Assembly: GCA_963920705.1 (NCBI GenBank)
Contig: OY987234.1
Location: 21,285,794-21,349,793, forward strand
DNA length: 64,000 bases
Direction of reading: 5' to 3'
Origin: Odiellus spinosus
Taxonomy: Eukaryota; Arthropoda; Arachnida; Opiliones; Phalangiidae
The position numbers and the translations under genes were made by a program. Positions 25,819 through 55,487 of the stretch are shown piece by piece (position 1 is the stretch's first letter; every line of letters starts with the position of its first letter). Below the pieces are notes generated by a model. The model worked only from the letters and a program-made list of their open reading frames with translations. It searched no databases and was not told where the DNA came from.

Positions 25819-27620
25819 CTACCACATAAATCTTTGAACTTCATGATGACCCTCCCATTTATAAGGGCGTTGAGTGAACATGTAGAGAGTTAAACAGTTT
25901 ATAAGAAAGTAAGTGGTTAATTCCGCAAAGATTTGAATGTTTGAGCCTAGAGGCGTATGAAGCCGAATAATCAAATATGGCACGATAAAGTAACGCAATT
26001 CTAATAATTTCTGAGGAACAATGGCTAAAACTAAGCACGTAACGAGAAGCAGTTTCCAGAGGGCATTTTTAGACTGAAAAATATTCATTAAACCCCAGGC
26101 GGAATAAACGTAAAATGGAATTAATAAATAGCGGATTCCGCCTCTACCTAGAAAATACCTCCAAATATAAAACATATAATGGCGATTATCAGCCAAAAGG
26201 TAAGGGTGGACGTAAGTTAGGTAACGTAAACAAACAGCCATAGCCAACATGACAGCCACGATAAAGATGGGTCTTTCCAAACACCAGCTCCAAAATTTGT
26301 TTAATTTGGAAATGGTCAACAGATAGGAATTTCCAAAAGCCAAAATAAAACCAAAGAAATAAAAAACTTGGGGAATGTGCAAACACACTTGATGAGCTTC
26401 CCTATCTCCGACCGCTATTCCTTCGTTAAAAATAACAAAGGTTACGAATAAAGCCGCTACACCGAGATAAGCGCCGCATGTTTGAAGAATTTCCAGTAAA
26501 ATCACGAGGGAAACCTTTCTTTGCGAATGAGGCATCGTAATTAACGTTTGCAAAACTTGCAACAAATAATGCCAACTTCCTTTCGATAACAGTACTTTCT
26601 TTTTTTCTATTCTGACGTGGCTCAAAATGACATCTACCACTTTCTCACCAGCCATCTGAAGATATAAAGTTTATTACCGATAAAATAATAGATTTGAAAT
26701 ACTTTCAAACTTACGAAGAAGATCCAAACTATGTTAGTTTGTCGAAAAAACAGAGACAAAGCTCCGAAAGCGGCTGACATCATATTTTGCCCGTATAAAT
26801 GGTGTAAATAAGCGAGAAGGACGAAGAATGTAGAGCTGACATCGGTGTAATATAGAAATGAAAAAAAATAGTGAACCGGAAAGATCCAGAGGCTTACGGA
26901 AGTAAAAATGATCTTGCTGGAGCTGGCATTCTAAAAATATACATATCACAAATCGATTTTTAATGACAATTTGCTCGCATTTAAATCATAGACTAGAAGA
27001 TGGTATTCCTAACCCATCATATTTGATCTTAACAAAAGTAAGTTTAAGTTAAAAGAATTGGGTATGGATTCCATCTTTTTTCAATGCTAAATACCTGGTG
27101 TAATTTCCTACTTATACTATATAGTAAGTACAGATTTCCCACGTGAAAGATCATGTTAACGAGCCTGAGATGTAAAATTTCGCAGAGCTGAAGATTAAGT
27201 ACTTTGCTTATGGGTACCAAGAATCCAACAGTCACCACGTACAGCCCAGGAGGAGTTGTAATTTTCGGATCCCACTAAAAATTTTCAAAATCATAAGTAA
27301 AATACTAATCCTTCCTAATTTAATTCGCTTAAATTGTGGTAGACGAGTAGACTACTAGATCACTGCCTTCTCTAATACTATAACTATTAGAGAAGGCAGT
27401 CACTAGACAATGTCAAGGCTTAGTTTTGACAATCAATATTTACTTCGTTGAATTTTCCATTACAATATTTGTGCGCTTGAGGAATATGGAATATTTCATC
27501 CATATAAGGTTTACTTTGAACGGAATTTACGAATATTAATGAGAGAAAAGTAATTAATACGAAAACTAGTGGAACAAACAAAATCAAAAATTGACTAGAG
27601 TAATTGTTTACAGTTGCCAT
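25819..27620 (-). CDS. ALG10: Dolichyl-P-Glc:Glc2Man9GlcNAc2-PP-dolichol alpha-1,2-glucosyltransferase
   Basis: ALG10 adds the third, terminal alpha-1,2 glucose to the dolichol-linked oligosaccharide on the lumenal side of the ER, which oligosaccharyltransferase needs for efficient N-glycosylation. Exons 27620-27444, 27274-27095, 26930-26715 and 26655-25819 join in phase 0, giving 469 residues (human 473). Conserved landmarks: PYMDEIFHIPQAHKYC in the first lumenal loop with the family's acidic DE pair, WDPKITTPPGLY, FFRQTNIVWIFF, GDREAHQVCLHIPQ, LLADNRHYMFYIWR, VPQKLLELRYFIVPYLI and the terminal EVQRFMW. Many hydrophobic segments fit a polytopic ER membrane protein. The start is the first ATG, followed by a hydrophobic helix (FLILFVPLVFVLITFLSLIF). 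It looks intact. Confidence 0.96.
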
Positions 27621-27726
27621 TTTGGAATTTTAATGCTTAACAAGAAAATGACAATAGGAACAATAGAGGGCGCCACTAAAAACCACCCAAACATGGAATA
27701 AAAAAGAGCGCTAATTTTGAACCGGA

Positions 27727-27838
27727 ATTATGACAATGGTTTGGAGACTGAAGGATTATGACAATGGTTTGGAGACTGAAGGATTATGACAATGGTTTGG
27801 AGACTGAAAGATTATGACAATGGTTTGGAGACTGAAGT
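27727..27838. repeat. 28-bp tandem repeat, four copies
   Basis: Four near-identical head-to-tail units starting ATTATGACAATGGTTTGGAG, spaced exactly 28 bp (27727, 27755, 27783, 27811), with one base change in the third unit. It lies about 110 bp upstream of the ALG10 start codon, in the divergent interval. Confidence 0.92.
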
Positions 27839-27985
27839 ATCAAGACAATTTATAATGACGAGCTTGATTTAGGCATATGTAGACTTTGTTTTCCTAGGGG
27901 TACTTAACTCGTGCAAACGTAGGAAAATTCCAACAAATTGAATAATTAGTTATAAAAAATAAAAAGTACAAAACAAAGGAGCATT

Positions 27986-28022
27986 TTAAAGGGCCAATTT
28001 TAGAGCAGACAGGACCTTTAAA
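27986..28022. mobile_element. TTAA family B element fragment
   Basis: TTAAAGGGCCAATTTTAGAG through GCAGACAGGACCTTTAA matches the right end of the element at 25170-25318 (GGGGCAGATTTCAGAGCAGA). It is a solo fragment. Confidence 0.5.
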
Positions 28023-28301
28023 GGAAGAAACGACCGGAGATAATGGTGGTATGTTTTTGAAAAACGTTCAAAAACGTTTCATAACGCTCTAGAAATATTT
28101 AGTTCCACAGAGCAAACAAAATGTAGATGTCTTTTTGGGAATATTCGTAGGTGATATTCTGCCTTGTAATGCACCTGTTGTTTTGTCACTAGCATGTTTT
28201 TAATCAACACGGGCTTTTTAAAAAGACAAAACCTCGATACAAAACTTCATACTCGCTATTTTAGTCGAACCAACTAGGCGAAAACCTAGAGCACCAACAA
28301 A

Positions 28302-28362
28302 ATGCAGCTTCGTTTCGCAGCTTTCGTCGTCGTCATTGCTTTGGCTATGTTTTGCGCCATTG
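28302..28362 (+). CDS. Signal-peptide first exon, alternative 1
   Basis: ATG at 28302 opens MQLRFAAFVVVIALAMF..., a short basic n-region and a strong hydrophobic core, then a consensus donor (G|gtaagt) after 20 codons plus one base (phase 1). It fits in frame with the 38104-38184 exon. Insect laminin beta chains start with a similar basic residue plus Val/Ile/Leu run, so it could be the LanB1 first exon, or the first exon of the low-complexity gene. The upstream 700 bp is shared divergently with ALG10. No TATA box is evident. Confidence 0.6.
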
Positions 28363-30668
28363 GTAAGTTAATCTTCTTCGCCATAATTGAACACCTAGGA
28401 CCATTTTAATTTCAATATAAACAATTCTGATATAGAGGCCTTAGAATTGAAGAACTCCTTCAAGAACGAAGATTATAAAGCTCTTTCGGCCTTAGTGTCT
28501 AAAGTAAATAAACTATATATTTTTTTATTCGTGTAAATTAGCTGTAGGGTATATTCAATGGAATACCACTCGAGCGAAAGCCTTATTGGTCCAATTCTAG
28601 CAAAAGTTCTTCTAAAACGAACATATTTGGTGGATTTTATATTAAATTCTGCCACAAATATAGTAGGCGTAAAATTATTAGGTCGAATAGGAATTCGTTC
28701 CAATGGAAAATAAGTAGCAGGGTAACCACAACAAAAGCTCCCCCAAAATTGAAGGAAAATAGGAATTTTTCCATCGATTTATAGGAAATTATAGGAAAAT
28801 TACTGCTAAAATTAAAGGAACCGTCTTATTTCTCATTCTAAAACTAAACATAATGAAGCGTATGACACTTGACCCAATTTCCTACAATATTTTCACTTCA
28901 ATTTTGTAGCTTTTCTCTATTAAAAAATTTTCCCTCGTCTACCATATTTAAAAACGAACAAATACTAAAGAAATATAGGAAAATGGTCGGGAAATTATAG
29001 GAATTTATATAGGAAATCATAGAAAATATAGGAAAAAATAAATTCGGTCTATTTAAAACGTCTAAACTGGGTTTATAAAAACCTTTTAGAAGTATGATAA
29101 TATAAAGCAAAGTTCGCAAAGCTTGTGACCCTTTTTTTAATTAAAAAATATCAATGTTTTCCAGTACTACAAGCAAGCTTTTAAAGCCGAGGAGCGTTCG
29201 AAGTAATTATAAATTTAACTTCGCGGGTAATTATTATATTTAAGCAATTAAAATTTATTTTACAGAATGATGTCTCTGCTCATTGGCCAATAAAATATGA
29301 AAGCCAAAATATATTTTAACAGGATTTTGAAACATAATGATGTAGTCTTTTTCGCAAAATTGATTGACCATGGTAAATAAATAATATTAAATTAATCAAC
29401 TTCATGATTTAATTAATCATCGTTAATTAATTTAATAATATTAAATTTACTGATAAATAAAAAGAACAAGTTTGAATATATAACCATATTTTGTATCATA
29501 AAATAATCCACGCTTAAAAATAAAATTTTAAACTATATTTTTCGTTTCACGTTAATTTTCTTATTTCACGTTCTTACACGAAATTTGTTTTTCACGATTC
29601 GTGATGGTATTTTGATTCTTTTACGTTATTGTAAACCCTATCCAAAAATCACGAGTCACGAGTTGAATTTACGTAAGCTTATTTGTTTTAGGACCGTTAC
29701 GAATGAAATTTTCGTGCCATTTTTGGTCACCGACTTATTTTTTTTAAAGTGAGGATGAAATGAAAAATTAAATTTAAGTCACGAAGCAAAATAAAGTTCG
29801 TCCAAACCTATATTGAAACGCGTATAATATTGCCTTTCATTCCACTTAAAAATATTCAACTGTTTTCTCGTAAAGAGGATTAGCCTTTAATTTTATTTCT
29901 CGAGACAAATTTGAATTTTCAGAAAAGGGGAGTGGCTACATTATCGCGTGGGAATGTTCGGCCTAGCTATCTTTCGAGCGTAGTGCGTGAAATTTCATTA
30001 ATTTTTAAGCCTCGCTACCGTTTACATTTCCAAGAACTTTGAAATCTAGTTCAGTCAGCCTCATCGAATATACTTTATAGTAAAATATCGTCTGCTAGTT
30101 ACTAATGAAAACATTTCGGCGACAAAACCCAACCGATTAAGGGTTGCCTTAGACGTATCTCCCTTTGATTTCAAATCTTGTTTAATAATTAGATTACCAT
30201 TTTAAACTAATTTTGAAGTAGAATGAAAATTGATCGAAAATAACTTTTTACTTTTACACATTCCCTTTATTTAAAATATAGATGAAATCACCTTGAATTT
30301 TTACTGACGCCTTTTTCTATGTACGGACTTATCATTCTTGCTTGCTGGAAATTGAATCTAATATTGACTATAGATTTGAAACAGTGTTAAAATTACTTTA
30401 ATAATATCATTAAATCCAAGTTTCGGATAGACGATCGATTTAAAACTGTCCAAATTATGGCATTGATAGTAAAAAAACAAACAATGGTTCCTTTTATTTC
30501 TATGATTAGTATTCTTAGAGCTTCCTTAGAGATAGAGAAACTATTTTTCTATATGCTGAAAACTTAAAGCGAAGCTGTCATGGTTTTTCAATATCTCCAA
30601 ATGGAATTTAAGTAACATTTTCGGAGAGATCGTCATTCAAAAAAAATTTAATTTCGTAATCTTCCAAA

Positions 30669-30952
30669 TAGTCCTGGTCGATTTGCCGGAAATGGGCCCT
30701 TGTCTCATAGCCGCGCCGCCATCTTTTTGTAGTAACAGGTTGCCAGACTATTTCTAATTTTATTTCCCACAAACCAAATTCAAGTTGTTAGTCCAACGCT
30801 TCCTATATGATAAAGTATAAGAGGCGTTGGTTAGTCTGTAGCTATTTTCACACTACAAAAAGATGGCGGACGATCACGTGACAAAAAGTTTTCCCCGCCA
30901 AAATTTTCGCGAGGTTCTCTAGACTTCCGGTTTTGGAAATCGACCAGGACTA
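30669..30952. mobile_element. 284-bp TA-flanked element, copy 1
   Basis: Inverted termini TAGTCCTGGTCGATTT / AAATCGACCAGGACTA with TA at both boundaries, as in Tc1/mariner-type insertions. A second inner inverted pair places GCCGCCATCTTTTTGTAGT opposite ACTACAAAAAGATGGCGG. Non-autonomous, no coding capacity. Confidence 0.88.
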
Positions 30953-31830
30953 TTTTTGAAACGATTCTCGCGAGGCTATTATAGATTCAACAGATGATTA
31001 TTTCATATTCTGTCACGTGATAGGTCACTCTCGCGCGGTCTTTTTTACGAAAGTTCCACCTTCTATTTAAAACTTATCGTTAATTATGTTCCATAATCAA
31101 ACTACGTCATCAAGTGGGAAAAATAAATTATATTCATATTTTTGATATTTTAACTCAGAGGGGTAAAACTTTGAATATTATTAGAATGAAAAAACTAAAA
31201 ATATTAAGCATTTGTCTTCGACAAAAATGGTGACAGCCACACTTTATTTCTAACTATAAGAATACATTAAAGGGTTCCTATAATCAACAATTGTTCTACG
31301 TCTATACGAGCGATAGAAAGAAAAAAAGGCCAAAGTAGGAAGCGAGATAATCTCAATTCGCCAAAACACCAAGGATGGAAAATATGCGGGGGCCACAAAG
31401 TTTCAAATCTTGAAATCCCACACATCCCCCCCATACAACTTCCCAAGTTTTTGATTTTTGTGATGTAATGGAGTTTAAGGGGCCCTATATAACGGTTTAC
31501 ATAAAACCTTGCTTTCCTATAATTTATAGTTCACTGAAAAATTTAAACAGTAAAGGGAGAATGAAGCGTGATTCCTTATCGTTAAGTGACAGCAAACATC
31601 GTTTTGTAAAGGAATTAAATTTGGATAATGCAATTTCAATTTCATTTCCCCCTCCCCCTCAAATTTCGGCTACTTTTCAGATTTTAATCATCATATTTGA
31701 ACTCCCAATTGTATCAAATCTATTTTCTTTTTAGTAATCGTGGGAAGCTTACGTTGGTATCACTCCATTTCATTTCACCTTTAAAAGGCCAAAAACAGAT
31801 TGAGATTTATAATTATTCATGTATCAAATA

Positions 31831-32114
31831 TAGTCCTGGTCGATTTGCCGGAAATGGGCCCTTGTCTCATAGCCGCGCCGCCATCTTTTTGTAGTAACAG
31901 GCTGCCAGACTATTTATAATTTTATTTTCCACAAACCAAATTCAAGTTGTTAGTCCAACGCTTCCTATATGATAAAGTATAGGAGGCGTTGGTTAGTCTG
32001 TAGCTATTTTCACACTACAAAAAGATGGCGGACGATCACGTGACAAAAAGTTTTCCCCGCCAAAATTTTCGCGAGGTTCTCTAGACTTCCGGTTTTAGAA
32101 ATCGACCAGGACTA
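31831..32114. mobile_element. 284-bp TA-flanked element, copy 2
   Basis: Same length, orientation and termini as the element at 30669-30952, differing at only a few positions, which indicates recent amplification. Flanks are TA on both sides. Confidence 0.88.
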
Positions 32115-32532
32115 TAAGAGCATTTTCCGTATGTCATTTTTAAATCGCAATAAAAGTTGTAACTTGATTGCATCACCACCCAAGTTAAAAAAATAAAAAT
32201 AAAAAATAAATAAATTATGTTTCAATTCTACTCCGTCTTCCCTTGAATTAATTAATAGGTTCCCTAGCCTAGGCACTATTAATTAATCCATGATCTTCCC
32301 TACTTTCTATCTCTTTCCTTGGTTTTTAAATTATTACAATAGCTTTTCAATTTATTTTTTTATTAATTTATTTTTATTTTGTATTTGTCCTGGCAACCAC
32401 ATATTACAGGCTACGTTTCGCCTCAGTGGTTGCCTGTAATACTGTTGCAAACTAAGTATTATTAATATCACTAGCAAATATCAGGTTTATTATACGTTGA
32501 TGATACCGTCAATAATATAAATAGGGTAAGCG

Positions 32533-32580
32533 CCTGTAAAAGTGTTCCAGCCTACGCGCTTCCGTGTTCAGGGTGAAGCC
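32533..32580. repeat. Dispersed repeat fragment, copy 1
   Basis: CCTGTAAAAGTGTTCCAG then CGCGCTTC and GTGTTCAGGGTGAAGCC. The same order of words recurs at 43396-43442 in a laminin intron. The family is not recognised. Confidence 0.6.
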
Positions 32581-33618
32581 CAACCTATTGCACCTTTCTG
32601 TCTATAATTTCGGATTCGAACAAATGGATGCCTTGTCGATCGTTTGCAATTCGACATATCACGGTATGTCGGAATGGTATACATATAAAAATTATTACTC
32701 CCAGCAGGCTTCCTAAAGTCTAGACCCATCGACCCTCGGGAGTAAAAAATAAGATAACAAAACATCGTCGCCGAAACAAATCTGTTGTATAATAAAACGA
32801 AAAAGAGCTAGGAAGACCACCCAAAAAGCGTCATTATATCATACCAGAAGCAAATTATAACCAGACTTAGAACCTCCCTTGACCTTTTGTTTCTGCCTTC
32901 ATTAATTAATTAAAGCTTTAGGGGACTTAATTAACGAAATTAAAGAACTACTTTTTGGCGTTTTTCTTCAGGGAGACTTGGGAAGCAAGACCGTGCATTT
33001 GGAAAACTAACAACACAAGAAAGATGGTCGGTCTCTCGTTACGCGACTAAAGCATTAGGGAGAGTCGAACTTCTCCCGTTATCTCCTTTTGACAATACCC
33101 ATATATAGTAAGGAATTTCCCCATAGGAAAAATTAAACTAAGAAACATCTTTCGTATATCAATTTAGGGTTTTTTTTTACACAAAACGTCTTGACCATAG
33201 TGATAAAATTTCAGTAATAAAATTAATTACTACAGAGACTGCTACTGCATTGATATAAAAATATAGTCCGTCTATTGAATTGTAAATCTCTCCAGAACGC
33301 TTAAACTATTTTAAAACTATGAATAAGCAGGTCATAATTTATTTTAATCATATTTTAAATTAGGCTTAAAAAGAAATTTAAATAAAGTTTGTTTAAAATT
33401 CGCCGTGTTTACTTTAGATTAATGATTATAACTACATAGTAACGTGATTAACGACGGAAAAAAAACGTATCTTGAGGCTATGCTTTAGTTGAAATCAGTA
33501 GTTATGTTACAGTTTGTTTATTTTTTATCAGCTAAGAGAGAAGAAACCGGGCGTTTGAGAAAATATGATCAATGGGTTTTTGTTTCGGCAAGATTAGAGT
33601 TTTCGCGATCCTCTTGAT

Positions 33619-33899
33619 CAAGGAGGATTAGACAAGGAGAGGAAATGTGGGGCTGCGTTGAGTTAGAGAGAGAAGAGCCAACCTCCCACTCGGGTGGAAA
33701 GGGGGGATAGGAAATTCTCGAGGTAAACTGTTGTCACGTGGTCGCTAGCTAGCGCGTCTCATAAAGGATTCGTTTTACCCACGCGACAACATTTTACCAC
33801 GAAACGTCTCTACCCCCGTTCTCCCAGAGTGGGAGTTTAGGCCGACGCAGTAGGAACCGCGCCGTCCACACATTTCTTCTCCTTGTCTAATCCTCCTTG
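33619..33899. mobile_element. 7-bp-TSD inverted-repeat element, copy 1
   Basis: 281 bp, long inverted termini (CAAGGAGGATTAGACAAGGA at the left and its complement at the right), flanked by a perfect 7-bp duplication TCTTGAT (33612-33618 and 33900-33906). Termini beginning CA with 7-bp duplications fit P-superfamily (1360/ProtoP-like) elements. No transposase, so it is a miniature non-autonomous copy. Confidence 0.92.
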
Positions 33900-33906
33900 T
33901 CTTGAT

Positions 33907-35232
33907 CATGCTCTTTCATATCTATATCTTTTTCACGTTGAGTTAGAAGAGCTAGCCATATAATTAGAGTTAATAAACATTTTTTTCTTCACAACACACC
34001 AACCCCACTCCTATATAAGTTATAAAACCAATAAATTACGTTTAAACCTTATATTTATCTTTAGAAAGCCATCTTTTCTCCCAGTCTTCCACAATCTATT
34101 CTATACTTCAATCCCCAAGCGGTAAAAACGCGGTTTCTCTTTGCCTGATTTCTAAAGCGAGTAGCCTTTTGCACTCGTGTCAAAAGCAATTCAACCCCCG
34201 AAGGAATTTGACCCTATAGGGTCACTTTTGCCCTCCGCCTCACCCTACTCTACATTTTTACCGTTCAACCGGCGCTTCTTTCGTCTAAATTTCTACGAAA
34301 TGAAGCCGGCGTGCGTATGGGTGGAAAGGAAAAACAGCCTCCAGAAACTCCAACCTTAGAAATTACCGAAGATTGAACTTACTATCAAGCAAAATAGGGT
34401 GGGGTTAAAGAAGTATGGTCCCTGCCTTGACCACTGGTAGAATATCGCGTTGAAAAAGAAATCTACATAGTAATCTGGCAAAAGAGCCAAAAGAAGCGGG
34501 AACCGCCGGAAACTGAATGTTCATTCTTTTTTTCACTCCATAAATAAACTATACTGGTTATCAATTTTATATAAAACTAGTAAAATGGAAACGTAAAGGC
34601 CTCCCACAGTTTCATAACGCTCTAAAGTATATATGATACAACTTCATTCATAGATATCAAGATAATCAATCCGGGGTTAGGATTGTAAGAGACGGTGGAG
34701 AAAAGTCTTTCTAGCGTTGGTAAAGGTCGCGAGTTTGGTTGAAACTTATCAATTCCAAGCTATCCAAAGCGTGTACGTTAACTTTAGACCGATGCCAGCC
34801 AAATATTAAAACCCTCGTTACGTTTGGTAACAGTGTAGGATAACTTTGATATAACTAAAATCCCCTCTGTGAAAGAGCAGTCTCAGAGGTGGGCCGCCGC
34901 CTCTAAAAAATATTTTTAGGGAGAAGAAACGCTCGCTTTCCCTCTCATTTTCAAGAAAGCGAGAAAGAACGTCTTTGGAAGATCAAGCAGTCTTCTTGGA
35001 GGCGAGGGAACTAAGGGAACTAGCCTTCTATTCGGGTATACGAGTCGGACATATAGTGGAAAAGGGGCCTCTATCTACCCTCTTTGGTTCGGTGTGTCGC
35101 GCGCGCCCTATATAATTTGGCTTGGATTAAAAACAAGAGAGCCCTAAACGCGATGCCTTGGATTTTAAATGAAGGCGATCGTGACCATCAACGTATATAA
35201 TAGTCAAATCATAGCCATTCCAGTATTAAGGC
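33907..35232. other. AT-rich stretch upstream of second signal exon
   Basis: No gene or repeat I can support, beyond short low-complexity tracts. Confidence 0.5.
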
Positions 35233-35239
35233 TATAAAA
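35233..35239 (+). promoter_or_regulatory. Candidate TATA box for the second signal-peptide exon
   Basis: TATAAAA lies 138 bp upstream of the ATG at 35377. The intervening sequence is comparatively GC-rich and lacks an intron signal, consistent with a 5' UTR. Confidence 0.35.
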
Positions 35240-35376
35240 CTCGGGTTAGGTCCGTTGGATTATCGAACCGCGAAGAGCGGAGGATCAGCTCATCATCTAG
35301 ATTTCTCCATCGCGGGGTTTTCTCCTAACGTTGCCTTAGGGGCGGGAGAGAGCCTAGGCCTAGAACGTCTAAGGAT

Positions 35377-35449
35377 ATGGAGTACGATTCGGCTCTAAGG
35401 TTTACCATCGCGATCGTCTTGGCCATACTTTTCGTGACACCTTTTTCGG
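35377..35449 (+). CDS. Signal-peptide first exon, alternative 2
   Basis: ATG at 35377 opens MEYDSALRFTIAIVLAILF..., a second typical signal peptide, ending in phase 1 at a consensus donor (TCG G|gtaaga). It has the same phase and the same kind of product as the exon at 28302, so the two look like alternative first exons of one gene. The best candidate partner is the acceptor at 38104. Confidence 0.6.
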
Positions 35450-38103
35450 GTAAGAAGACTAATTCGTTATTCTACTTCTTAATTTTGTCCTTATAAGGTT
35501 TCGTTTAAAACGTAAAACGTGAGCGAGCGAGAGAGAGACAGGGGCGGAAATGGGTGCGTGAAGCGAGTTTGGAACTGACTGTGTTTTAAAAGATCTCCTG
35601 GAAGGTCTTGGCTTTCACGAATCTTAGGAGATGACACGCCCCTGAATATCCGTGGAGAATCTATTTAAATTACCTTATGACCTCTAGATTACACTAATCT
35701 AAGTTGTCATTATTGAACGTGATTTAATACGTGTCTTGGGGGTTCAAATTAAATAATTTTGATTGAACGTTATTCGGAAGATACGTTTAATTGAAAAAAG
35801 ATGGATGTAGCACTTTATTTAATGGAATTTGAACTTTTGGTATTAAAATCCGATTATTTTAACGCTTTATTTAGTTTGAATATGTTATTTATTCATAATA
35901 GTCGTGGTTAATTAGTATTTGCGAGACATTCAGGCTTAAAATTAAGTGTAATAGTTGGGATTTCGGCAATTATTTTGAACTAATCTCGGATAATTCTAAG
36001 ATATGATAATTAGTCAGCTTTTTGGCAAAGATCTCGGGTTAAAAAAAAAAAACAGAGAAACGATGGTTTAGACCTAGGATATGCAAAGGAATGGGTGTTA
36101 CTATTGTTTTGGTAATTGTATAAGGACAAAGATATTTTTCCGCTGCCAAAATTTTAGTCTTATTGTAAGACCACCCAAAAAAGGGAAAAATGATTAGATT
36201 AAAAGAATTCCATGGTCGTCAGTTACAATTATAAATATGACGTGATCCAATTGCGAAAAGTATTCATAACAACATGTGTTTCTATCTCAATATCGAAGGA
36301 TTTGTTTAGATACGGGTATAGACTGTATAGGTAAACTTCATCGAGCTAAATTTCCTGAAAACCCACACACAACCGTATAGAGTAGAATTTCCAAATCCGT
36401 TGCCAACTAGGGAATACGCCCGTACAATATTTTTCACATTATGGCGGAGAATAAATGCTACAAAAATATTCGCGCAAAATAAATTTAACGGGAATGAGTA
36501 CATTGCAAAAACTTCAAACTTTCTTTTGACCACGGTTTGACCTCGGGTTTGACAGTCTTTTTGGAAATTGGAAAAGATTTTATCAGAACCCCCTGAACGA
36601 TTCGCAACCAACTTATCAAGAAGGAGGTTTAGGACTAGGGAGGGGATTGGAGAAAAGATATAATTTGACAGTGACGAAGACATTTCAACCATAAATTCTA
36701 AGCCTAAATAACAAGTGCAGTGTCACGTTTGAAAAATAGACCTCCCTTCTAGCTATACAATACCAGACAAACTCACCCGAAAATAACATAAAAGAAATAA
36801 TGAATGGGTTTTATCCACAAAATTGGTAGTCTAAAAGATCCCCCCACCATAAAATAAACTTATTTTAGATAAGTTCTGTTAATAGTCATCTTTAAATCAA
36901 TTTTAAGATAATTTAAATGGGGTTAAAACCCTTCCAAATAATCAGTATAAAGTCTGTAGCTTTGACTGTACTAAAGAGATTACGTAACTGAGTACGTATT
37001 TAGTATTAACAAAGGCCCAAAAGCCGTGTTTGTCAATTTATTGTTAAGCCTAATTAGTGCTAAAAACTAGCGTTCATGGAGACTTACAACATTACGATTT
37101 TTTTACATTGGATATCAATTCCCATAGTTGGTATTATAAAATAACCTTGGAAGCAGCAAAAAGAGCCATTAAAAAGCACCTGTTTCTACGAGGATGTTTC
37201 CATTTTTCACGGTTGGTACAAAGTATAGGATTATCAATACTTTTCTCAACCTTGGAACCAACAAAAAGAGCCGTTAAATTCAACCTGTTTCTATTGAAGA
37301 TATTTCCTTTCAAGGTTGGGACAAAGTGAAGTTTTATAATATCAACTATTACCTCGTCCATTTTACTCCAACGCTCCTCTTGAACTGAAGTATAAATCCA
37401 AAATTTTATTTTAAAACCACGATGTATAGAAAATCGAATATTTACGACGATTTTACATTTCACCACGCCTTTAAAAGTTTAAAAGGGGGAATGAAGTGTT
37501 TATGAAATCAATTTTAAATCGATTTAAATAAAGTTCTTTGTCAAAATGGAAAATTAGAGACTTAAAAGTTTGAGACTTCAATAAAAAATGGGTCTAAATT
37601 ATAATTTAGAGGTTGCGTTATACAAAATTGAGAAAAGGCGGGAAACCATGTTTTAAGAGATAGACTGGGGGTGTTGTATGATATGGTCGGAAATATCGAA
37701 CGAGTTCAGCTTCCTACAAATACAATTTTTATTTCTCTCTTCCGTCGTTCCCATATGCGGCCAAAAATAGGAGCGCCGCTATACTGTACTTTTAGTCTTT
37801 TCACCCTTGCTAAAATATTTCTCTTCCAACTAAAAACTATAGTCGCTAGCACCGTTTAGTTTTGTGTGTAGGTTTTTTTTTATATATATTTTTTATCGTC
37901 TCCTAATTCAACGCCCACGCGAAAGGAAAATGACAAGGCTCCGACGCCGCTGAGATATTTGCTAAAACTATACCTATACATTGAACACCAGGAGGGGATT
38001 TCTAGTTTTTCGTAATTAATTCCAAATTTGTCTCGCTAATTTAGCCTTGGTATACTGATTATTTTTTTCATATTTTCCTCAAATTTGTATTTTAAACTTT
38101 CAG
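35450..38103. other. Intron between second signal exon and shared exon
   Basis: About 2.65 kb, AT-rich. Two short duplicated segments, GGAAGCAGCAAAAAGAGCC (near 37149) and GGAACCAACAAAAAGAGCC (near 37253), form an imperfect roughly 105-bp direct repeat. I see no exon. Confidence 0.55.
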
Positions 38104-38184
38104 AGGTTGCCGGTCAGAAACACCATGGTTACAGAAAAACATCCCGAGGGCAAGGGTATATCCAAGAACTTGATAGGGAGCGAG
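38104..38184 (+). CDS. Shared 81-nt exon after the signal peptide
   Basis: Acceptor tttcag|AG and donor G|gtaatt give 27 codons in phase 1 to phase 1. With either signal exon it reads EVAGQKHHGYRKTSRGQG...DRERG, a hydrophilic, basic mature N-terminus. Composition and position resemble the short basic spacer that precedes the LN domain in insect laminin beta chains, but it also matches the Arg/Glu/Gly-rich style of the 38904 exon. Which gene it serves is unresolved. Confidence 0.55.
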
Positions 38185-38903
38185 GTAATTATATTTTAAA
38201 AAATGATCTAATGTTTTCTATAATTATAATGACGTAATTGTAACGCTATTTTACTAATTAGGCGTACTTAATCAAGTTAATATTAAATGAACGCGCTTTA
38301 GTATTTTGTAAAGTATCTTATCACTGAATACCAGCATCAATACAGTTTTGGTGATGACCTTTTGACCTCAAAGTATAATTTTTTTTAATTAGTTTCGTGT
38401 TCCTAACGCGCGAACGAAAATAATATCACAGAAAAGTTTTTCAAACTTCATCACCAATGATTTGGTGTTCAGGGAGAAGTTACTTTCTAGGGGCCAATTA
38501 AAATAATATTTGAAAAATTTATTAGCCTACCTAACTGTCCTATCTAAGCTTACAGACTATTTTTACGACTTTACTACGTTAATATCCAACAACTTTTCAA
38601 TTTCAATAAATTATGGGTGATGGTATATATTAATTAATGCATTATACGCATTTGCAACCTTCGAAGAAATAAATTTACCGAGGAATACCGCGTTTACAAA
38701 GCGAAAGGAGCTCACTTCTAAGGTTGCAACTAGCTATAGACCTAAAAATACGTAACTCAAACCGTAACTACACGCTTTAATACAAGTCGCGATATGTTAT
38801 AACTAAAAACGCGTCAACAACAACATCGAGGTGCGAAGGTGCTACCGCTAACAGCTTAACATGACCACAAATCAAAATAATTAAATTCCGCGATTGAAAA
38901 AAG

Positions 38904-40822
38904 GATCTAGAAGCGTTCAGAAGGACGAACCGGAAATACGCCAAGAATCGTACTTCGGGCGTCAAGACGAGAAAGGTCGCGAACGTTTCGACTGGGGTAG
39001 CGGACGAAAGTCTTCTCCGAACCAAATTGACGAAAGTAGACTGGTCAAAAGCGAACGAACGTCCAGCAGAACTAGGACGACTGAGAGAAGAAGCCACAGT
39101 TTCGCGTCTTCATCCGATATCGATACCGGAAATGGGAAAGAAAGTTTCGCGGATTTAGCCACGCGTCTTCGGGAGTATCAACAACGGAGATTCGGTGGCT
39201 CCTCGCAAGGTTTCGATACCTTTTCCCACACGGGTATCAAGAACGGTACCAGAACCGTTACCAGGGTAGAAGAACGACTTTCGCAACGTCTCTTACCGGT
39301 CGGTGGACGAGAAACGACCCTAAACCGATCCATATCGGCAGTCGAAACGCCTATTTCTTCGGAAGACCTTGATAACAGGGACTTCCTAAAGGAAACCAGA
39401 TACGGCGGCAGTAATACGATAGATCGCGGGTCATTTTCATCCGCAGGAAGTAGAAAGGGTGATTCCGGTGGGTTCTCGAGTAGAAGGGATTCGATCATCT
39501 CATTGGACAGTGAAGAAAAGGGACGTTACCATACCAGAACTGACGCTGCAACGGGAAGCGAAACGGCTCGTAATTGGCAAACCGGAAGTAGAACATGGTC
39601 AGCCGGTGGTAGTGAAACTAGAACCGGAAGCGAATCAGATAGAAATTGGCAAACCGGTACCCGTACTTGGTCCGCTGGAGGTGGTAGTGGTTCTAGTAAT
39701 GAAAGAGGAGGAAGTGAAACAAGAACCGGAAATGAAGATGATCGAAATTGGCAAACAGGAACTCGTAATTGGTCTGTCGATGGCGGCAGTGGTAATAGGG
39801 GCACTCAAGGTAAAATTGGCGAAGAGGGAGAACGTGTCATCAAAACTGAAAGCAAGTCGTTCGATTCAAATACTATGGATAGAGACTTGGAAGAATGGTT
39901 GAGAAATAGGAGACTAAAAGAGTCACGAACTACGTGGTCTTCTTCTTCGTCCAAAACGGGACAAACTGGAGAAGAAAGACAATGGTCAGGAAGAACCGAA
40001 TACTCCTCGCGATCGGGAGAAAAGGGAACCCCACCCAGACCAGTCACAACGTGGAGTTCAGAAACCTACAGAGGGCAGACCGGAGGAAGTTCCGAAACAT
40101 ACCGAGGACAGACCGGTGGGTGTTCCTCTTGCCGAGACAGAGACGAAACCTCGAAAGGAGACGATGACAGACGAGATTTTGGAACTAGAACTAGGCCAGA
40201 CGCTTCGAGAGGACGCGACCAGGACGATCGCGTTAGAGTCACCGAAAGCAAGGGGGAAGAAGTCGACAAAGTAACTGGAGAAAGAAGATACTGGTCCACG
40301 AGAACGGAAACCGGTGGATTCGAAACCAAAGGCGGTGGATGGTCGTCTAGAAATGACGTCAGAACTACGACGAGTAAAGGCTCTTCCGAAAGCGACTCTC
40401 GATACGACTACGAAAGAAGACAATGGGAAAGACGCCGTCAATCCTCGACTCCAACCCCGATTCAGCCATCGACGACGGAAACCAGATGGTCCTACGGTTC
40501 CGGTACTTACCCCACCTACGTGGATGGCTCCGCAACAAGAACGGAATCCAGATTCAATAGGACATCGACAGAAATATATACTCGAAGAGGTACGGGAGGT
40601 ACCACCTATAATACCACAACAAGACGATTCTATAACGAATCCGGAAGTGGATGGGGTTCCGGCGGAAGCGGAAGTACTAGCACCAGTTCCAGGGGATGGA
40701 AATACGACCAGGATCGTCGTGAAGAAAAGGATAGAGATCGTGGAGTCATCAAAGTAACGGTTGACGAAACGGGTCGTAGTCCCGGGGGTTCCGGTGGTAC
40801 GTTGACAAATTTTACCAAATAA
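38904..40822 (+). CDS. Unrecognised Gly/Ser/Arg/Thr/Trp-rich low-complexity protein, main exon
   Basis: Open frame of about 640 codons ending at TAA 40820-40822, in a GC-richer island. An in-frame stop at 38882 implies that it starts by splicing or at a non-ATG. Acceptor aaaaaag|GA at 38902-38903 is weak but in phase with exon 38104-38184. The protein is probably disordered and highly charged, with tryptophan recurring in blocks: NWQTGSRTWSAGG (39571), NWQTGTRTWSAGG (39643), NWQTGTRNWSVDGG (39745), RQWSGRTEYSSR, RYWSTRTETGGF, ETRWSYGSGTYPTY. SSETYRGQTGG is duplicated (near 40055 and 40088). The only cysteines are one CSSC (near 40119). I do not recognise the family. If joined to a signal exon it would be secreted, for example a matrix or secretion protein, but function is unknown. 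Confidence 0.7.
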
Positions 40823-40895
40823 GTAGATGTAACCACGGGTGATGGTATAACCAAAAGTAGTTGGTAACAAATTGGACCATTTAGTTTGGACAAGG

Positions 40896-40901
40896 AATAA
40901 A
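40896..40901 (+). terminator. Polyadenylation signal of the low-complexity gene
   Basis: AATAAA 73 nt after the stop codon at 40822, the right distance for a 3' UTR end. It supports this exon being terminal in its own transcript. Confidence 0.6.
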
Positions 40902-42285
40902 ATCACGAGTTTTTATACTTAAAATTAATTTAAATAATTTACCGAGTCCATTCATTTGGTTCAGAAACTTTTGCGCCTTTTTTTTAACCAATGGGGGTAG
41001 TTTTAACACCTTTAACCCAAATAATTTGAGCGTTGGTTTACGATTTGTTTTTACAGATATGTTTTATGATTAAGCCGTGGGTAAGGTGATTTTTACCTTG
41101 TATTTAAACACATATTTATATATATTTAATATTTTGCCAGTTTAGTGGTTACATCACTCTTTGAAAAGAGAATTTTGGCACCGTTTTTGTTTGACAGAGA
41201 AAGTTTAGGTTCATTCGCGCTAGAATTTACTAGCCTAGGTTGCGATGCAAACTTATCTTGAACCTTTTGTAATAAAAGGTTATCAAAGATTTGGAAAGAG
41301 AGTTAATATATACTTAAAAGAGGGGAATTCATATTTGGTCGAAAAAATTAGATTACACTATGAAGATAGTTTGAAAACGATTTAAATGTGAACTCGACCG
41401 AATAGCGACGGAAGAAAACGCACTGTCAGGAGAAGAAAAAGGGGAAAAGTATAAAAACATGTACTCACTGCACTTGCTTCCATCCATCCCATCCTTTGAT
41501 GTTTCTTCTTCCCGCGTCGGAAAAAATAAAATAAAGAGTGTCTTGGTCGTGAGTCATCTTTTGGTCGGTCTTATTAGGGATGATGGGAGTTTTAAGCATC
41601 GTCCATAATTTGAAGATTCGTTTTTTTTCTTTTCGCGGGCCTACTTTCGTAAAACGGCGCCAACACCTACACGATATCGTAATGATCATGACTATGGAGT
41701 AATTTCCATCTTGTCTCAGTCGTTTTTCTTTTTTGGTAGTTTTTAGGTTTGCATATTCCTCCCACAGCGAGGAAAGACGTATGTTCTTTCCCGTTTTAGA
41801 TAATGACACGATAACGAGGGGGTAACATCGAATTAGCTAGTCGAACCTAATTGAGAAATAATAAAATAAGAAATTATGAGTTTTTTAAAACAATATGATC
41901 ATAACTGGTATTTCCCAAACATATTACACTGTCAAAATATTCCGTAAATGATATGTACCGCGAAATATTTGGACCCCAAAAATCTCTGAACTTTAACCTT
42001 TAAATCAGTGAAAACAATTTTATCCTAGTTAGGGTAACAAATTAAACTCCTTGATAGGTTAGAAAAACTACTTGGGAGTGTCAGAGGGTAACTTGTGACC
42101 AAAGTTATCCCAAACATATTTACAAGAAACATTACCTATATTAAATAATAATTTACAAGTTCGTCGTCATAAACAATTAAGTCTAAAGATGACCTTATTA
42201 ATGATCAAATAAGTCAAATTATAAAAGTTTAATATAGAAACAAAATAAATGAATTAATTTGATTGCTTGTAAAAATTCCACAAAG
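40902..42285. other. Interval between low-complexity gene and laminin exons
   Basis: AT-rich. I searched it for a small exon encoding the conserved Cys-x3-Cys at the start of the laminin LN domain and found none. A 114-codon minus frame at 41465-41809 has no recognisable features. Confidence 0.5.
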
Positions 42286-43138
42286 GTTTCACCGCAACCA
42301 GATTGGGAAATCTTTTAATCGGCAGAGAAGACCGATTATCAGCCACATCAACTTGCGGGTTAACTAAACCCGAACGTTACTGTATAGTCAGTCATTTGAA
42401 AGAGAAAAAGAAGTGCTTTTATTGCAACAGCACGCCAAACAGAACTAGCGACAAATTTTATCATGGAATTGACAAAATCGTTTCCAGGTTCATATCAAAT
42501 CGAAATCTATTTCATTACTCCAAGAAACTAGCGTCTAAAAGCTTAAAATTTTCAGGATATCAAAAAGAAAGGGGCAAACTTGGTGGCAGTCCGAAAACGG
42601 TGTCGAAGAAGTCTCGATTCGATTGGATTTGGAAGTCGCGTTTCATTTTACCCACGTCATTATTAAATTTAAAACTTTTAGGCCAGCTGCCATGTTGATA
42701 GAAAGGTCTAAAGATTACGGGAAGACGTGGAAAGTAAGTTTGTTCGAGACGCTCCTTATAGCTAAGAAGTAACGTTCATTAAATTAATGGTTCTTAACAG
42801 GTGTATCAGTATTTCGCGTATAATTGCGAAGAATCCTTCCCGGGAATACCGGTAAGAGCTCGTCAAAGAATAGACGACGTTGTTTGCGACACTCAGTATT
42901 CGGCGGTGGAACCTTCCTCGGACGGCGAAGTCATTTTTAAAGCCATCCCGCCACAAATTCAGCAACTGAATCCGTTCAGCGACGAAGCTTTAGACATTCT
43001 GTCCATTACTAATTTAAGGATAAACTTTACTAAACTCCACACTTTCGGAGACAATCTCTTGGATTCCAGGGAAGAAATTAAAGAGAAATATTACTACGCT
43101 ATCAAAGAAATGTACGTCAGGGGCAGTTGCTTCTGTAA
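42286..43138 (+). other. LanB1: Laminin beta LN domain coding region
   Basis: The LN domain drives polymerisation of the laminin network. The first exon reads [20 protein letters not shown] then [16 protein letters not shown], where relatives have CYPATGNLLIGR. The usual preceding Cys-x3-Cys is absent. If the upstream exon ended in T the split codon would be TGT (Cys); with exon 38104-38184 it is GGT (Gly). The first intron inside it is only 68 bp (42488-42555). Confidence 0.85.
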
Positions 43139-46100
43139 CGGACACGCTAGTCATTGCGTAGCCGATCCCGATATCAACCAAGTCTCCAAACCAGAAATGG
43201 TAAGTTAATCAGGCGAGAGTAAAGATTCTCTTGAATTTTGTGGACTAGCAATTATATCGGTGTTTTAATTGCAGACTTAATTAATTTTATTTAATTTTAA
43301 TCCAACCAAAGTTACTGAAAGTAGCCGAATTGTTCTACGAGTTATTACTAGTTAAAAGAAATCAAAATTGGATATTTTCTAAATTTTACTTTGCACCTGT
43401 AAAAGTGTTCCAACAGTCGCGCTTCGGTGCTCAGGGTGAAGCCAACATCTACAGAATTTAGGGTAGAATATATGAAAATAAAACAAGGGGAACCGGATGT
43501 AAATATTGAAAGTCTAGCTCGCAAAAATACGAATAACAAGAGTAATAATTGGACAATGATTTTAATTTAATAGCATTAAGAAATGTTTATCAATTCACCA
43601 TCAAGAGCAATTAAAATCTAATGGAATTATTTTGGAAACCCAACTCCAAAAAATTCAAAATTCCTCGATCTGAAACTTCAGAAAAATCTACCGATTGCTA
43701 GTCCACAAATAAAAAATATTCCACGTTTAAGCTAGAAAATTTCTTCAAAAATATGCGGATATGTCATTAAATTTAGGTTTTTGGGAAATGCGAATGTAAC
43801 CATAATACGGAAGGAAAGAATTGCAATAAATGCAAAGCATTATATAATGATAATCCATGGAGACCAGCCATGATTACTCAAGCGAATGAATGCAAACGTA
43901 AGTACTTGAACAACTTCGAAAGCCGAAAATCATATAAACTGAAGTATTTGTTATCTAGTTTGCGAATGTAATAACCACGCGACCGAATGTCACTTCAACC
44001 GAACTTTGTGGGAGACGAGTGGAGAAATCAGTGGTGGTGTTTGCGAGAACTGTAAGCACCATACGACTGGGAGAAACTGCGACCAGTGCCAAAATTTCTA
44101 CTATCAGGATCCTGGCCGAGATCTGAGGGATCCTAATATTTGCCAGCGTAAAATTTTGAATAACAAACTAACGCTTTTTCATACGCTTCGTTAAAATATT
44201 TCCTTTCGTGGTTGAAAAATGCACTCTCATCGAAAAAAATACGAATGTTATTGGAATTTTCGACCCGCAATATTAATTGTAGTTTTTAACTTAAAAATAA
44301 CACCTTGGTAAAGGATCTTCGTCGCGAAATGGGTCGATTAAAATTATTTTTATCGTTTTAAAATATAACAGAATGCGACTGCGATAGTAGAGGGTCCCTC
44401 TACGACGGAGTTTGCGACTCCAAGACTGATTTAGACAGGGGCTCGGTCTCTGGTAACTGTCATTGCAAGAGAAACGTAGAAGGAAGGCGATGCGATAGGT
44501 GCAAAAATGGATTCTGGAAGTTTGAACAAGAAAATCCAGAAGGATGTATTTGTAAGTACCAACAAATACCGCCATAGCCTTTCCGGCAACGACACAAACT
44601 AAATCTAATTTCTTAAAGCTTGTTCGTGCGACCTCCTTGGTACCGTCATAAACCAAGGGTGTAACCCTTACACGGGAGAATGTCTTTGCAAGAGGAACGT
44701 AATTGGAAAAGATTGCAATCAGTGTTTGGTACGTTACAGTTGGTTCCTTTATCGTGACGTCATTATTAACTATCCCAGAATAATCTAACGATTAAATAAT
44801 GGTTACAGCCAGAGTTCTGGGGATTGAGCGCGGACGAAGATGGTTGCAAGTCTTGCGACTGTGATCCCGGTGGCTCGTACGATAACAACTGCGACGTCAT
44901 TACCGGTCGATGCCGTTGCAGACCAAACATTAACGGAAGACGCTGCGACCAACCGGAGAGTGGCTTTTTCGCTGGAGATTTAGATTACATGACGTACGAA
45001 GCCGAATTGGCCAGGGGTAGCAACGATTGTCAAGTTTTGGTGAGGGAACCGTATCCTAGTAGAGAATCCACTTGGACTGGTTTGGGTTTTATGCGAGTTT
45101 TTGAAAACTCCTATCTCGAATTTGACATCACGGACGTACCGGCGTCGATGGAATACGATATCGTCATTCGATACGAACCTCAGGTTAGTTTGTTTCTCGA
45201 TAAGCGTTTAAAATAAATCTTTAAATTATTAAGATCATATTTTAAAATTCCTTGCACGCCTATCTAAGACGTGGTATATCTATAATGGTAAACTTATCCA
45301 AGATTCTTATGATTCTTCTTTGTTAAATGAGCAATACGAAGGTTTAAATGTAGGGCCCAGTAACGCTTGCTCGAAAAGTTTCGGGAAGTATTTCTTGGTC
45401 GCTAAATTTAAAACAATTGCAGCTCCCGGGACAATGGGAAGAAGCGACAGTTACGATTGATAGACCGGGACCAATTGCCCCTGATGGTCAGTGCTCTAAT
45501 ACCATGCCTCAAGACGATATCAAAAGAGTCACGCTTCCTTCTGGTAAACACATTCGAGACTCGAGTATATTTAACCAAGAAGGATCAGATAAGGAGAGGA
45601 AAAGTGGGAACGGCGCGGCTCCTACTGCGTCGGCATAAACTGCCACTCTGGGAGAACGGGGGACAGACGGGGGTAGAGATGCTTCGTGGTAAATTGTTGT
45701 CACGTGGGTAAAACGAATCCTTTATGAGACGCGCTAGCTAGCGACCACGTGACAACAGTTTACCTCGAGAATTTCCTATCCCCCTTTCCACCCGAGTGGG
45801 AGGTTGGCTCTTCTCTCTCTAACTCAACGCAGCCCCACTTTTCCTCTCCTTATCTGATCCTTCTTGATTTAACGAAGTTTAATAACTAAAACCAAATTAA
45901 AATAGGCGAAAGAAATGTCGCGGTATTCCCGCCAGTATGTTTGGAAGAAGGCAAAATCTACAAGATAAGAATAGAGTTCAAACAATACGATTCGCAAATC
46001 GATACACCATCGGCTTCTATTTTAATAGATTCCGTAAGAAATTAGTCGTTTTATGATGTCCAAAATGAGTCAGTTTTAAAAATACTTTCTTGTAATAGAT

Positions 46101-53185: not shown

Positions 53186-53649
53186 GTAAAGGAAAAGGCT
53201 CTGGAAGTTTCGAATTTACGAAGAAAATTGTATCAGGGAAAACTGAATGCTTACGGGTTCAGGGCCATATGTAGATAATAGGTTAAAATTAATGGGTTTA
53301 AATGACATTAAATTTAGCTCTAGAAATGAGAACATGACATATTTCACTTTGACGCGAGAAGCAGCTGTGAAGATTACGTGTTCGATATATTTGGACTATT
53401 GGCTATTAATTACCTGCCAGTTTTTATATTATATATATATGTAATATTTTACTAATATAGTTTTTTAAAGGGATAGTTTCACCTATAAGTTGTAATTAAT
53501 AACACACCTCGCAAGAGTAATACAAAGGGTGTAGACATTTTCTATTGGCTATTCAAATTACAGCGCGTGATTACTTGGATGGTGGGTGTAACAGTTATGA
53601 TTTCAGTGTCACTGCCTCTTTAAGAAATATAATTTTAACGGTTTATGGT

Positions 53650-54650
53650 TAGGAGATAGTAGAGAAACGTTACGGTCATTTTAAGATGGGGGTAATTTTT
53701 GGATTTTTGCTCGATTTCTATCAGTGGCGGAATAATCTTTAACGAGTGGCTCATGTCAATTTTATTATTTTAAATTAATCTAAGGAATGTCTACTTTCTA
53801 ATAATACAATCTGTTTATTCCTAGGATATTGTAGAGAAAAGTTAGGGCCATTTCAAGATAGGGGTCATTTTTGGATTTTTGCTCGATATCTATCACTGTG
53901 GAAATAGTCTTTAACGAGTGGCTCATGTTAATTTTATTATTTTAAATTAATCTCGATAATGTGTTCTTTCTAATGGTGCTATCGATTTATGCCTTGGTGA
54001 TAGTAGAGAAAAGTTACGGCCATTTCAAGATAGGGGTCATTTTTGGGTTTTTGCTCAATTTTTGTCAGTGAGGAATATTTTTTAATGAGTGGCTCATGTC
54101 AATTTTATTATTTTAAATTAATTTAGGGAATCTCTTCTTTCTAATGACGCAATCGGTTTATTCCTAGGATATTGTAGAGAAAAGTTACGGCCATTTCAAG
54201 ATAGGGGTCATTTTTGGATTTTTGCTCGTTTTCTATCAGTGACGGAATAATCTTTAACGAGTGGCTCATGTTAATTTTATTATTTTAAATTAATTTAGGG
54301 AATCTCTTCTTTCTAATGACGCAATCGGTTTATTCCTAGGATATTGTAGAGAAAAGTTAGGGCCATTTCAAGATAGGGTCATTTTTAGATCTTTGCTCGA
54401 TTTCTATCAGTGCCGGAATAATCTTTAACGAGTGGCTCATGTTAATTTTATTATTTAAAATTAATCTAGGGAATCTCTTCTTTCTAATGACGCAATCGGT
54501 TTATTCCTAGGATATTGTAGAGAAAAGTTAGGGCCATTTCAAGATAGGGGTCATTTTTGGATTTTTGCTCGTTTTCTATCAGTGCCGGAATAATCTTTAA
54601 CGAGTGGCTCAAGTCAATTTTATTATTTTAAATTAATCTAGCGAATGTAT
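53650..54650. repeat. Satellite-like tandem array, about 172-bp unit, six copies
   Basis: Units begin near 53651, 53823, 53995, 54166, 54337 and 54509, each with GATATTGTAGAGAAAAGTTA-type start, TCATTTTTGGATTTTTGCTC, ATCTTTAACGAGTGGCTCA and TTTTATTATTTTAAATTAAT. Later units are more alike than the first ones. The unit length is close to one nucleosome repeat. Confidence 0.95.
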
Positions 54651-55487
54651 TCTTGCCCTTCCTTCTTAACGAAGAGTTCTATAGCTCCCAGACTCCACCC
54701 AGATTGTTGGACGAGACTAGTGACGTTTAATCACGTGGTAAACTATCCACCCCGCTTAATTTAAAGCGGTAGAACTGAAGAACATGAATTTATTGCAAAA
54801 TTTCTTAATTAATAAATTAATACGCTAATAAAACTTATAAATAGCAATGCAATATTGATCTAAGGACGCATTTTTGAGTCTACGATGCAACTACATCGAG
54901 AGATAAGCCTAAATGTCGCTTAAAACACACTTTTTAAACAAATCCGCTGAGTGAACACGTATGAAATTAAGACTAGGATAAATGCTCCATTTTGTACAAA
55001 ATTATGCAACGCTTAAAATCAAAACTTCTACAATTAAAAGAGGTACTGCACATTTTCAAAAAAACCCACGTAGTGAACACGTGTGGATTACATTTTTCAT
55101 AATATATGATATTGTTTTTCAAATTCCTAAACTTTTGATTTTTAAAATTGACAGTAAAAGCAAATTACCGCGAATATTAATGATTACCGGTAAGCGGTAA
55201 TTTAAAATAAAAACTACTACAACTAAATAATGAAATATTTCGGCCCGAAAACCCGCTAAACCAGTGACTTGTCTGTGATCCAATTGAATGTGACGTCACA
55301 CCACCATAGCCAATCCCCCTTTTCCTCAAATGCGGCCAACTTCCACATACATCGATCATTTTACAGTCGACCGCTATATCGAATAGACCCTTCGATAGCG
55401 CCGACAATTATATTTTCTATTAAAAATATTTATTAAATTTAATTTAAATTTAGTTATTATTAAAATTAATTTAAATAAAGCCTCGTC
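54651..55487. other. AT-rich interval upstream of a candidate first exon
   Basis: No gene recognised. Contains the CRE-like site at 55291. Confidence 0.45.
55291..55298. promoter_or_regulatory. CRE-like palindrome TGACGTCA
   Basis: A perfect CREB/ATF consensus 190 bp upstream of the candidate non-coding exon at 55488. CRE sites are known in vertebrate ALAS promoters, so this could be part of an ALAS promoter, but an eight-base match can be chance and another TGACGTCA lies inside the transposon at 19791-20703. Confidence 0.3.

Follow-up and report, generated by a model that had tools for sequence, protein, structure and literature searches.

The arthropod proteins closest in kind to the one described here are silk fibroins, sericins, resilin and glue proteins, with which we compare it in general features and not by sequence. 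Our subject is a 64,000-nucleotide (nt) stretch of the genome of Odiellus spinosus (Arachnida; Opiliones; contig OY987234.1, positions 21,285,794 to 21,349,793 of the forward strand; hereafter the window) and, within it, a long open frame at 38904-40822, the putative last exon (e3) of a gene that neighbours laminin beta. As in those arthropod proteins, a likely signal peptide and short N-terminal exons would precede one long repetitive exon, and like arthropod low-complexity secreted proteins the e3 product is rich in Gly, Ser and Thr, predicted to be disordered and domain-free. Unlike silk, resilin and glue proteins, it is rich in Arg and acidic residues, has recurring Trp, contains little Ala (1.9 per cent) or Pro (2.0 per cent), and carries just three plus two clear repeat units. 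A further comparison is with the adjacent laminin beta-1 (LanB1), which lies on the same strand and is phase-compatible with two candidate first exons (e1a and e1b) through an acceptor at 42286; unlike LanB1, e3 encodes no Pfam domain at all. BmLanB1-w is an extra (second) laminin beta gene of the silkworm (PMC4515764). The present locus is, like BmLanB1-w, a putative lineage-specific novelty among insect beta laminins, and unlike it consists of an unrelated orphan next to the one laminin beta found.

We consider it probable that 35377-35449, 38104-38184 and 38904-40822 make up a real plus-strand protein-coding gene with a secreted, mostly disordered product. The long frame, the selection on its repeats, its ATG-free first half, the one bridging exon and the single genomic copy are read from the sequence; splicing, secretion and function are inferred. 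The features of the long exon are as follows.

38904..40822, plus strand: terminal exon e3, encoding 638 residues beyond the junction codon and ending in a stop at 40820-40822
39551..39798, plus strand: three NWQTG(S/T)R(T/N)WS units
40055..40120, plus strand: tandem duplicate of SSETYRGQTGG
40896..40901, plus strand: AATAAA polyadenylation signal, 74 nt past the e3 stop

The initial annotation had proposed an open frame of about 640 codons ending at 40822 with its own AATAAA, and both are real. From stop to stop, the frame (38885-40822) spans 645 codons, and translation from 38906 gives 638 residues and a stop. By comparison, the longest open run in 300 first-order Markov shuffles (3 kb, composition as in the real sequence, six frames) had a median of 155 and a maximum of 264 codons. 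The probability of an open run of this length at the exon's own base composition is 1.4e-15. For 38885-39446 alone it is 7.9e-5, which favours the stretch upstream of 39447 as coding; the two other plus-strand frames contain 6 and 9 stops there. GC content is 0.43-0.53 in windows within the frame versus 0.32 right after it. When silent-codon preferences were trained on neighbouring genes and applied to 25 windows, the e3 frame scored highest of the three plus-strand frames in all 19 windows inside the open reading frame. The three antisense frames score worse than the sense frame. Only one methionine occurs among the 638 residues, at residue 324 of the e3 translation (P0001), and the first half of the frame lacks an ATG, so the start is most likely supplied by an upstream exon.

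The repeats provide a separate line of evidence. Repeats described beforehand as tandem NWQTGxRxWS units do exist, in three copies, although they are interspersed, at spacings of 24 and 34 codons, and do not follow one another directly, while the two copies of SSETYRGQTGG do stand back to back, as had been claimed. The SSETYRGQTGG pair differs by six silent and no replacement changes (Fisher p 2.5e-5). Among the NWQTG units, the ratio of replacement to silent differences (pN/pS) is 0.15 for units 1 and 2 (p 1.5e-5), 0.41 for units 1 and 3 (p 0.038) and 0.23 for units 2 and 3 (p 0.0011), or 0.17 for units 2 and 3 in an extended comparison. A pooled value of 0.13 carries an overstated p value because some of the comparisons in it share a unit. 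The fast evolution proposed in the initial annotation may apply between species; across repeat units within the gene pN/pS ranges from 0 to 0.41. The e3 repeats are under purifying selection at the protein level, and this excess of silent over replacement changes is the strongest evidence, short of a second species, that e3 is translated and constrained in sequence. Hence the 645-codon frame, its ATG-free first half and the mostly silent repeat differences together identify e3 as a translated, protein-constrained exon.

Upstream, three further features complete the proposed gene.

35233..35239, plus strand: TATA-box-like TATAAAA found by pattern scan, 144 nt 5' of the e1b ATG, a putative promoter element
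35377..35449, plus strand: e1b, the proposed first coding exon, with candidate signal peptide MEYDSALRFTIAIVLAILFVTPFS and a phase-1 end
38104..38184, plus strand: exon e2, EVAG then QKHHGYRKTSRGQGYIQELDRER, in phase 1 at both ends, by which a cleavage-like site is completed

We scanned 26.6-42.3 kb for ATG exons of at least about 50 nt that encode a hydrophobic N-terminus and whose donor scores above zero, and found six starts. Only 28302 (e1a, 28302-28362) and 35377 (e1b) are strong, with hydropathy of 3.2 and 3.59 and donor scores of 4.3 and 6.0, respectively; the remaining starts are weaker, with 36212 at 2.0 and a cluster of three that overlap each other, in a different frame of e3, at 2.48-2.55. 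Splice sites were scored with generic weights rather than with a trained model. On this scale, the donors at 28362 (TTG/gtaagt) and 35449 (CGG/gtaaga) lie at the 98.7th and 99.5th percentiles of 772 GT sites in 26.6-42.3 kb. As had been predicted, e1a and e1b both end in phase 1, and each joins e2 and then e3 without a stop in the part translated (for e1a the whole form, of 686 residues). The region around e1b (35200-35460) has one DNA match in its own genome, and its TATAAAA is one among many TATA-like words in an AT-rich stretch.

Exon e2 is the sole open phase-1-to-1 exon of 24-300 nt at four of four thresholds in 35450-38903 and at three of three in 28363-38903. Shuffles of 35450-38903 held any bridging exon at e2's own thresholds in 12 of 200 cases, and in a second set (0/200) none held a bridging exon with a cleavage-like start. 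The junctions read ...FCAI-EVAGQKHH from e1a and ...TPFS-EVAGQKHH from e1b. By a simple -3,-1 score, the highest-scoring site overall falls within the hydrophobic core in both precursors, and outside that core VAG/Q is the top cleavage-like site in both. We suggest that e1b, e2 and e3 would be spliced together, that the signal peptide would be completed over the first junction (...FSEVAG/QKHHG), and that cleavage after VAG would release a mature part of about 660 residues.

The composition of this product is unusual. Its 638 e3-encoded residues comprise 15.0 per cent Ser, 13.6 per cent Arg, 13.0 per cent Gly, 13.0 per cent Thr and 2.7 per cent Trp, with 1 Met and, in agreement with the near absence of cysteine seen earlier, 2 Cys. 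If cut after VAG, the mature form has 662 residues, of which 33 per cent are charged (K+R 117, D+E 100), giving a net charge of 0.026 per residue. Arg makes up 78 per cent of the basic residues, and there are 17 Trp, 19 Tyr and 7 N-glycosylation sequons. Tiggrin-like matrix proteins are RGD integrin ligands; the 662-residue mature form has no RGD and 2 KGD motifs. AlphaFold2, run on one sequence without an alignment, returned a mean predicted local distance difference test (pLDDT) score of 39.6, with 584 of 638 residues below 50, which is weak evidence of disorder because single-sequence models are often poor. Short helices were placed at residues 81-96, 121-124, 323-338 and 502-510 of P0001. 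The protein is probably almost wholly disordered, judging from this prediction. Its low-complexity, repeated and predicted-disordered mature part fits secreted disordered repetitive structural proteins, a functional class and not a sequence family, to which it would belong if present in an extracellular material. In such a secreted flexible polymer, Arg and Trp/Tyr would most likely serve as cohesive stickers, with Gly/Ser/Thr spacing them, and the polymer might form or coat a layer outside the cell, for example a matrix, a secretion or an adhesive. The composition thus suggests an extracellular matrix or secretion component.

Searches for relatives fit the earlier impression that the family is unrecognised. 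With e3 as query, no family was found in Pfam at E up to 10, no match in NCBIfam and none in PDB at E up to 1; the lack of a Pfam domain means that e3 has no LN or EGF-like domain. Viral contigs gave one pattern-matching stretch and prokaryote genome contigs 12, none of them confirmed, and none of these negatives, Pfam, NCBIfam and PDB included, bears on relatives in insects. In its own genome (443 Mb, 286 contigs), the e3 protein matched one place at E up to 10 (four best candidates scored), and the multiple copies expected of transposon-derived sequence did not appear in this protein search. The motif strings NWQTG, SETRTG, TRTWSAGG and SSETYRG had no literature match, and no description of the gene was found among the titles and abstract openings of the matches listed.

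Several points, in addition to the limited worth of pLDDT as a sign of disorder, weigh against the proposed gene. First, the silent-codon score of the e3 frame falls below zero in 8 of 19 inner windows, and for the whole exon is 0.05 versus 0.07-0.09 in three stretches of neighbouring genes, which were themselves part of the training set. Second, e2 is short, and its weak coding score in phase 1 (3.2, rank 22 of 490 candidates) is below the one it has in phase 0 (4.8, rank 13), where it likewise lacks a stop; the thresholds of the bridging test derive from e2 itself, which makes that test post hoc. Third, the e3 acceptor at 38904 lacks a pyrimidine tract and, with a score of -4.49, reaches just the 34th percentile of 926 AGs, far below the acceptor of e2. 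In its favour, its AG at 38902-38903 is the first after a CTTAAC word near 38855, which we take to be branch-point-like. A much stronger in-frame acceptor lies further in.

39447..40822, plus strand: possible shorter e3, in-phase (phase 1) acceptor, score 5.57, 99.7th percentile

A shorter form lacking 181 residues is therefore possible. Finally, the functional step of the model draws solely on composition. In-frame donors within e3 that run on to laminin (e.g., 40115 and 40589) were set aside, since many arise from GGT glycine codons, which automatically place GT in phase 1.

The best-surviving alternative, to which we give a substantial chance though somewhat less than even, is that separate genes are involved: e1a would start its own small secreted peptide, e1b would belong to e3 or to laminin, and e3 would have no alternative signal exons. 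The relevant features are these.

28302..28362, plus strand: e1a, the other candidate for a first exon, with candidate signal peptide MQLRFAAFVVVIALAMFCAI and a phase-1 end; may start a separate small gene
28436..28536, plus strand: alternative second exon for e1a after intron 28363-28435, frame EALELKNSFKNEDYKALSALVSKVNKLYIFLFV then stop, with AATAAA at 28507 inside the frame before the stop

In-phase AGs after e1a allow a 73-nt intron leading to a 53-residue frame or a 75-nt intron leading to 33 residues, and AATAAA at 28507 is downstream of the latter's stop; e1a may be a separate small gene because it fits such an intron, a short exon and this signal. The 9.7 kb between e1a and e2 also contain a 286-nt element twice, at 30668-30953 and 31830-32115, 98 per cent identical. 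Against separation, the two acceptors reach only the 77th (53 residues) and 54th (33 residues) percentiles, AATAAA is frequent in AT-rich DNA and here falls within the frame of 53 residues, and a search of the same genome at E up to 10 revealed no paralogue of the short peptide. The initial annotation's two alternative signal exons therefore stand in part: both are in frame through e2, but e1a also fits its own short exon and laminin beta also needs a signal exon. Promoter choice that alters just the signal peptide may occur and is compatible with the sequence, and e1b may belong to e3, to laminin beta or to both. As separate observations, the 286-nt element has inverted ends (AGTCCTGGTCGATTT...AAATCGACCAGGACT) and resembles a short non-autonomous DNA transposon, and a 28-nt minisatellite (4.4 copies, 94 per cent matches) occupies 27727-27849, about 450 nt upstream of e1a.

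A second alternative, which we regard as unlikely, is that the signal exon or exons, perhaps with e2, also begin laminin beta, with e3 an alternative last exon in the laminin 5' intron used by choice of splice or polyadenylation site. The laminin exons concerned are listed here.

42302..43199, plus strand: first recognisable laminin beta-1 exons (LN domain), joined as 42286 or 42302 to 42487, 42556-42733 and 42801-43199
42058..42094, plus strand: candidate small laminin exon, CQRVT then C on joining 42286, which would supply the first two LN cysteines

From 42303 onward, the joined exons match Pfam Laminin_N at E 1.9e-77, and their best PDB match is laminin subunit beta-1 at E 1.3e-103 (with a query that also held 42058-42094 and 42286-42302). 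When the third LN exon was searched against the genome, it found itself at 99 per cent and two other places at 38 and 29 per cent, both of which belong to the 13 Laminin_N matches in this genome. On this one-exon search, a single laminin beta is likely. It would need a signal peptide, and the scan of 26.6-42.3 kb for first exons of at least about 50 nt found just two strong signal-like ones. Moreover, if LN began at 42286 it would start in phase 1, and so in frame with e1a, e1b and e2. However, joining any of these to 42286 loses the first two LN cysteines (CAEGSC in PDB laminin beta-1), and the better-scoring acceptor at 42302 is in phase 2 and fits none of them. Exon 42058-42094 would restore the cysteines, its CQRVT/C aligning with CAEGSC with a two-residue insertion relative to the PDB chain, but it has a weak donor and starts in phase 0, or in phase 2 from 42063, and not in phase 1. 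Eight combinations provide starts joinable to 42058 or 42063; they are weak or in another frame of e3, and none is a convincing phase-0 partner. Pfam scores of the three LN versions (261.4, 260.3 and 260.7 bits) differ little and are not decisive.

Other routes to the laminin 5' end gave little. No Cys-Tyr-Pro codons occur on the plus strand of the whole window, and an obvious first LN exon with a CxxxSCYPAT-like start was not found upstream of laminin beta. Upstream plus-strand Cys-Phe-Pro codons at 27887, 29155 and 31510 were rejected, as their context does not fit an LN start. Two-cysteine exons ending in phase 2 for 42302 number four in 1000-42302, one of them between ALG10 and laminin (30738, weak donor, -2.3). 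For 42286, one exon has C-x3-S/T spacing (42058-42094), and a looser rule with both acceptors gives seven. Read in another frame of e3, 39732-39809 encodes MKMIEIGKQELVIGLSMAAVVIGALK, which is hydrophobic and has a phase-0 donor compatible with 42058; this is probably a by-product of glycine codons. No literature was found on insect laminin with an alternative signal-peptide first exon, or on insect laminin with intronic polyadenylation and secretion. That one transcription unit yields both laminin beta and the disordered protein, with shared signal exons joined to LN exons or, via intronic polyadenylation, to e3, seems to us distinctly unlikely.

Third, and quite improbable in our view, e3 could be coding without being secreted: an unseen exon further upstream would join it in a different phase, perhaps via 38921, to make a nuclear or cytoskeletal disordered protein. 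Ser/Arg-rich disordered composition also occurs inside cells, and the acceptor at 38904 is weak, whereas 38921 (phase 0) is better, at the 84th percentile; against this, the search for bridging exons in phase with the signal exons and 38904 found e2 alone, and with either signal exon e2 creates a cleavage-like site. A chance open frame or transposon remnant has almost nothing left to recommend it, for although low complexity can keep frames open and an antisense frame of 284 codons slightly exceeds the shuffle maximum, the e3 frame is far longer than that maximum, its repeats differ more by silent than by replacement changes, one copy was found and the antisense frames score worse.

The proposed gene, with e1a, e1b, e2 and e3 all on the plus strand, sits between ALG10 and laminin beta. 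Its other neighbours are these.

1515-14409, minus strand: exons with the Pfam domains HECT, UBM and WWE
Minus strand of the window: ALG10 gene

The gene with WWE, UBM and HECT domains is presumably most like HUWE1. Rfam gave no matches over 26600-42300. Downstream of the last laminin-like frames, a 172-nt tandem array occupies 53639-54654 (5.9 copies, 89 per cent matches), and 55934-56560 contains arrays of short TTTCGCCCAATT-type repeats and of their reverse complement, including at 56190 an array of the 5-nt unit AACCT.

The gene is real and is probably an orphan encoding a secreted disordered protein, of an ordinary kind although its family is unrecognised. Domain-based annotation readily overlooks orphan proteins that are disordered and secreted, and here the silent-site evidence in the repeats lets such a gene be recognised from its own DNA. 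Interest beyond that of an ordinary orphan depends on whether first exons are shared with laminin beta. If they are, splicing would link the expression of laminin to that of an orphan matrix-like protein, and a cell could then switch between basement-membrane laminin and a secreted disordered protein.

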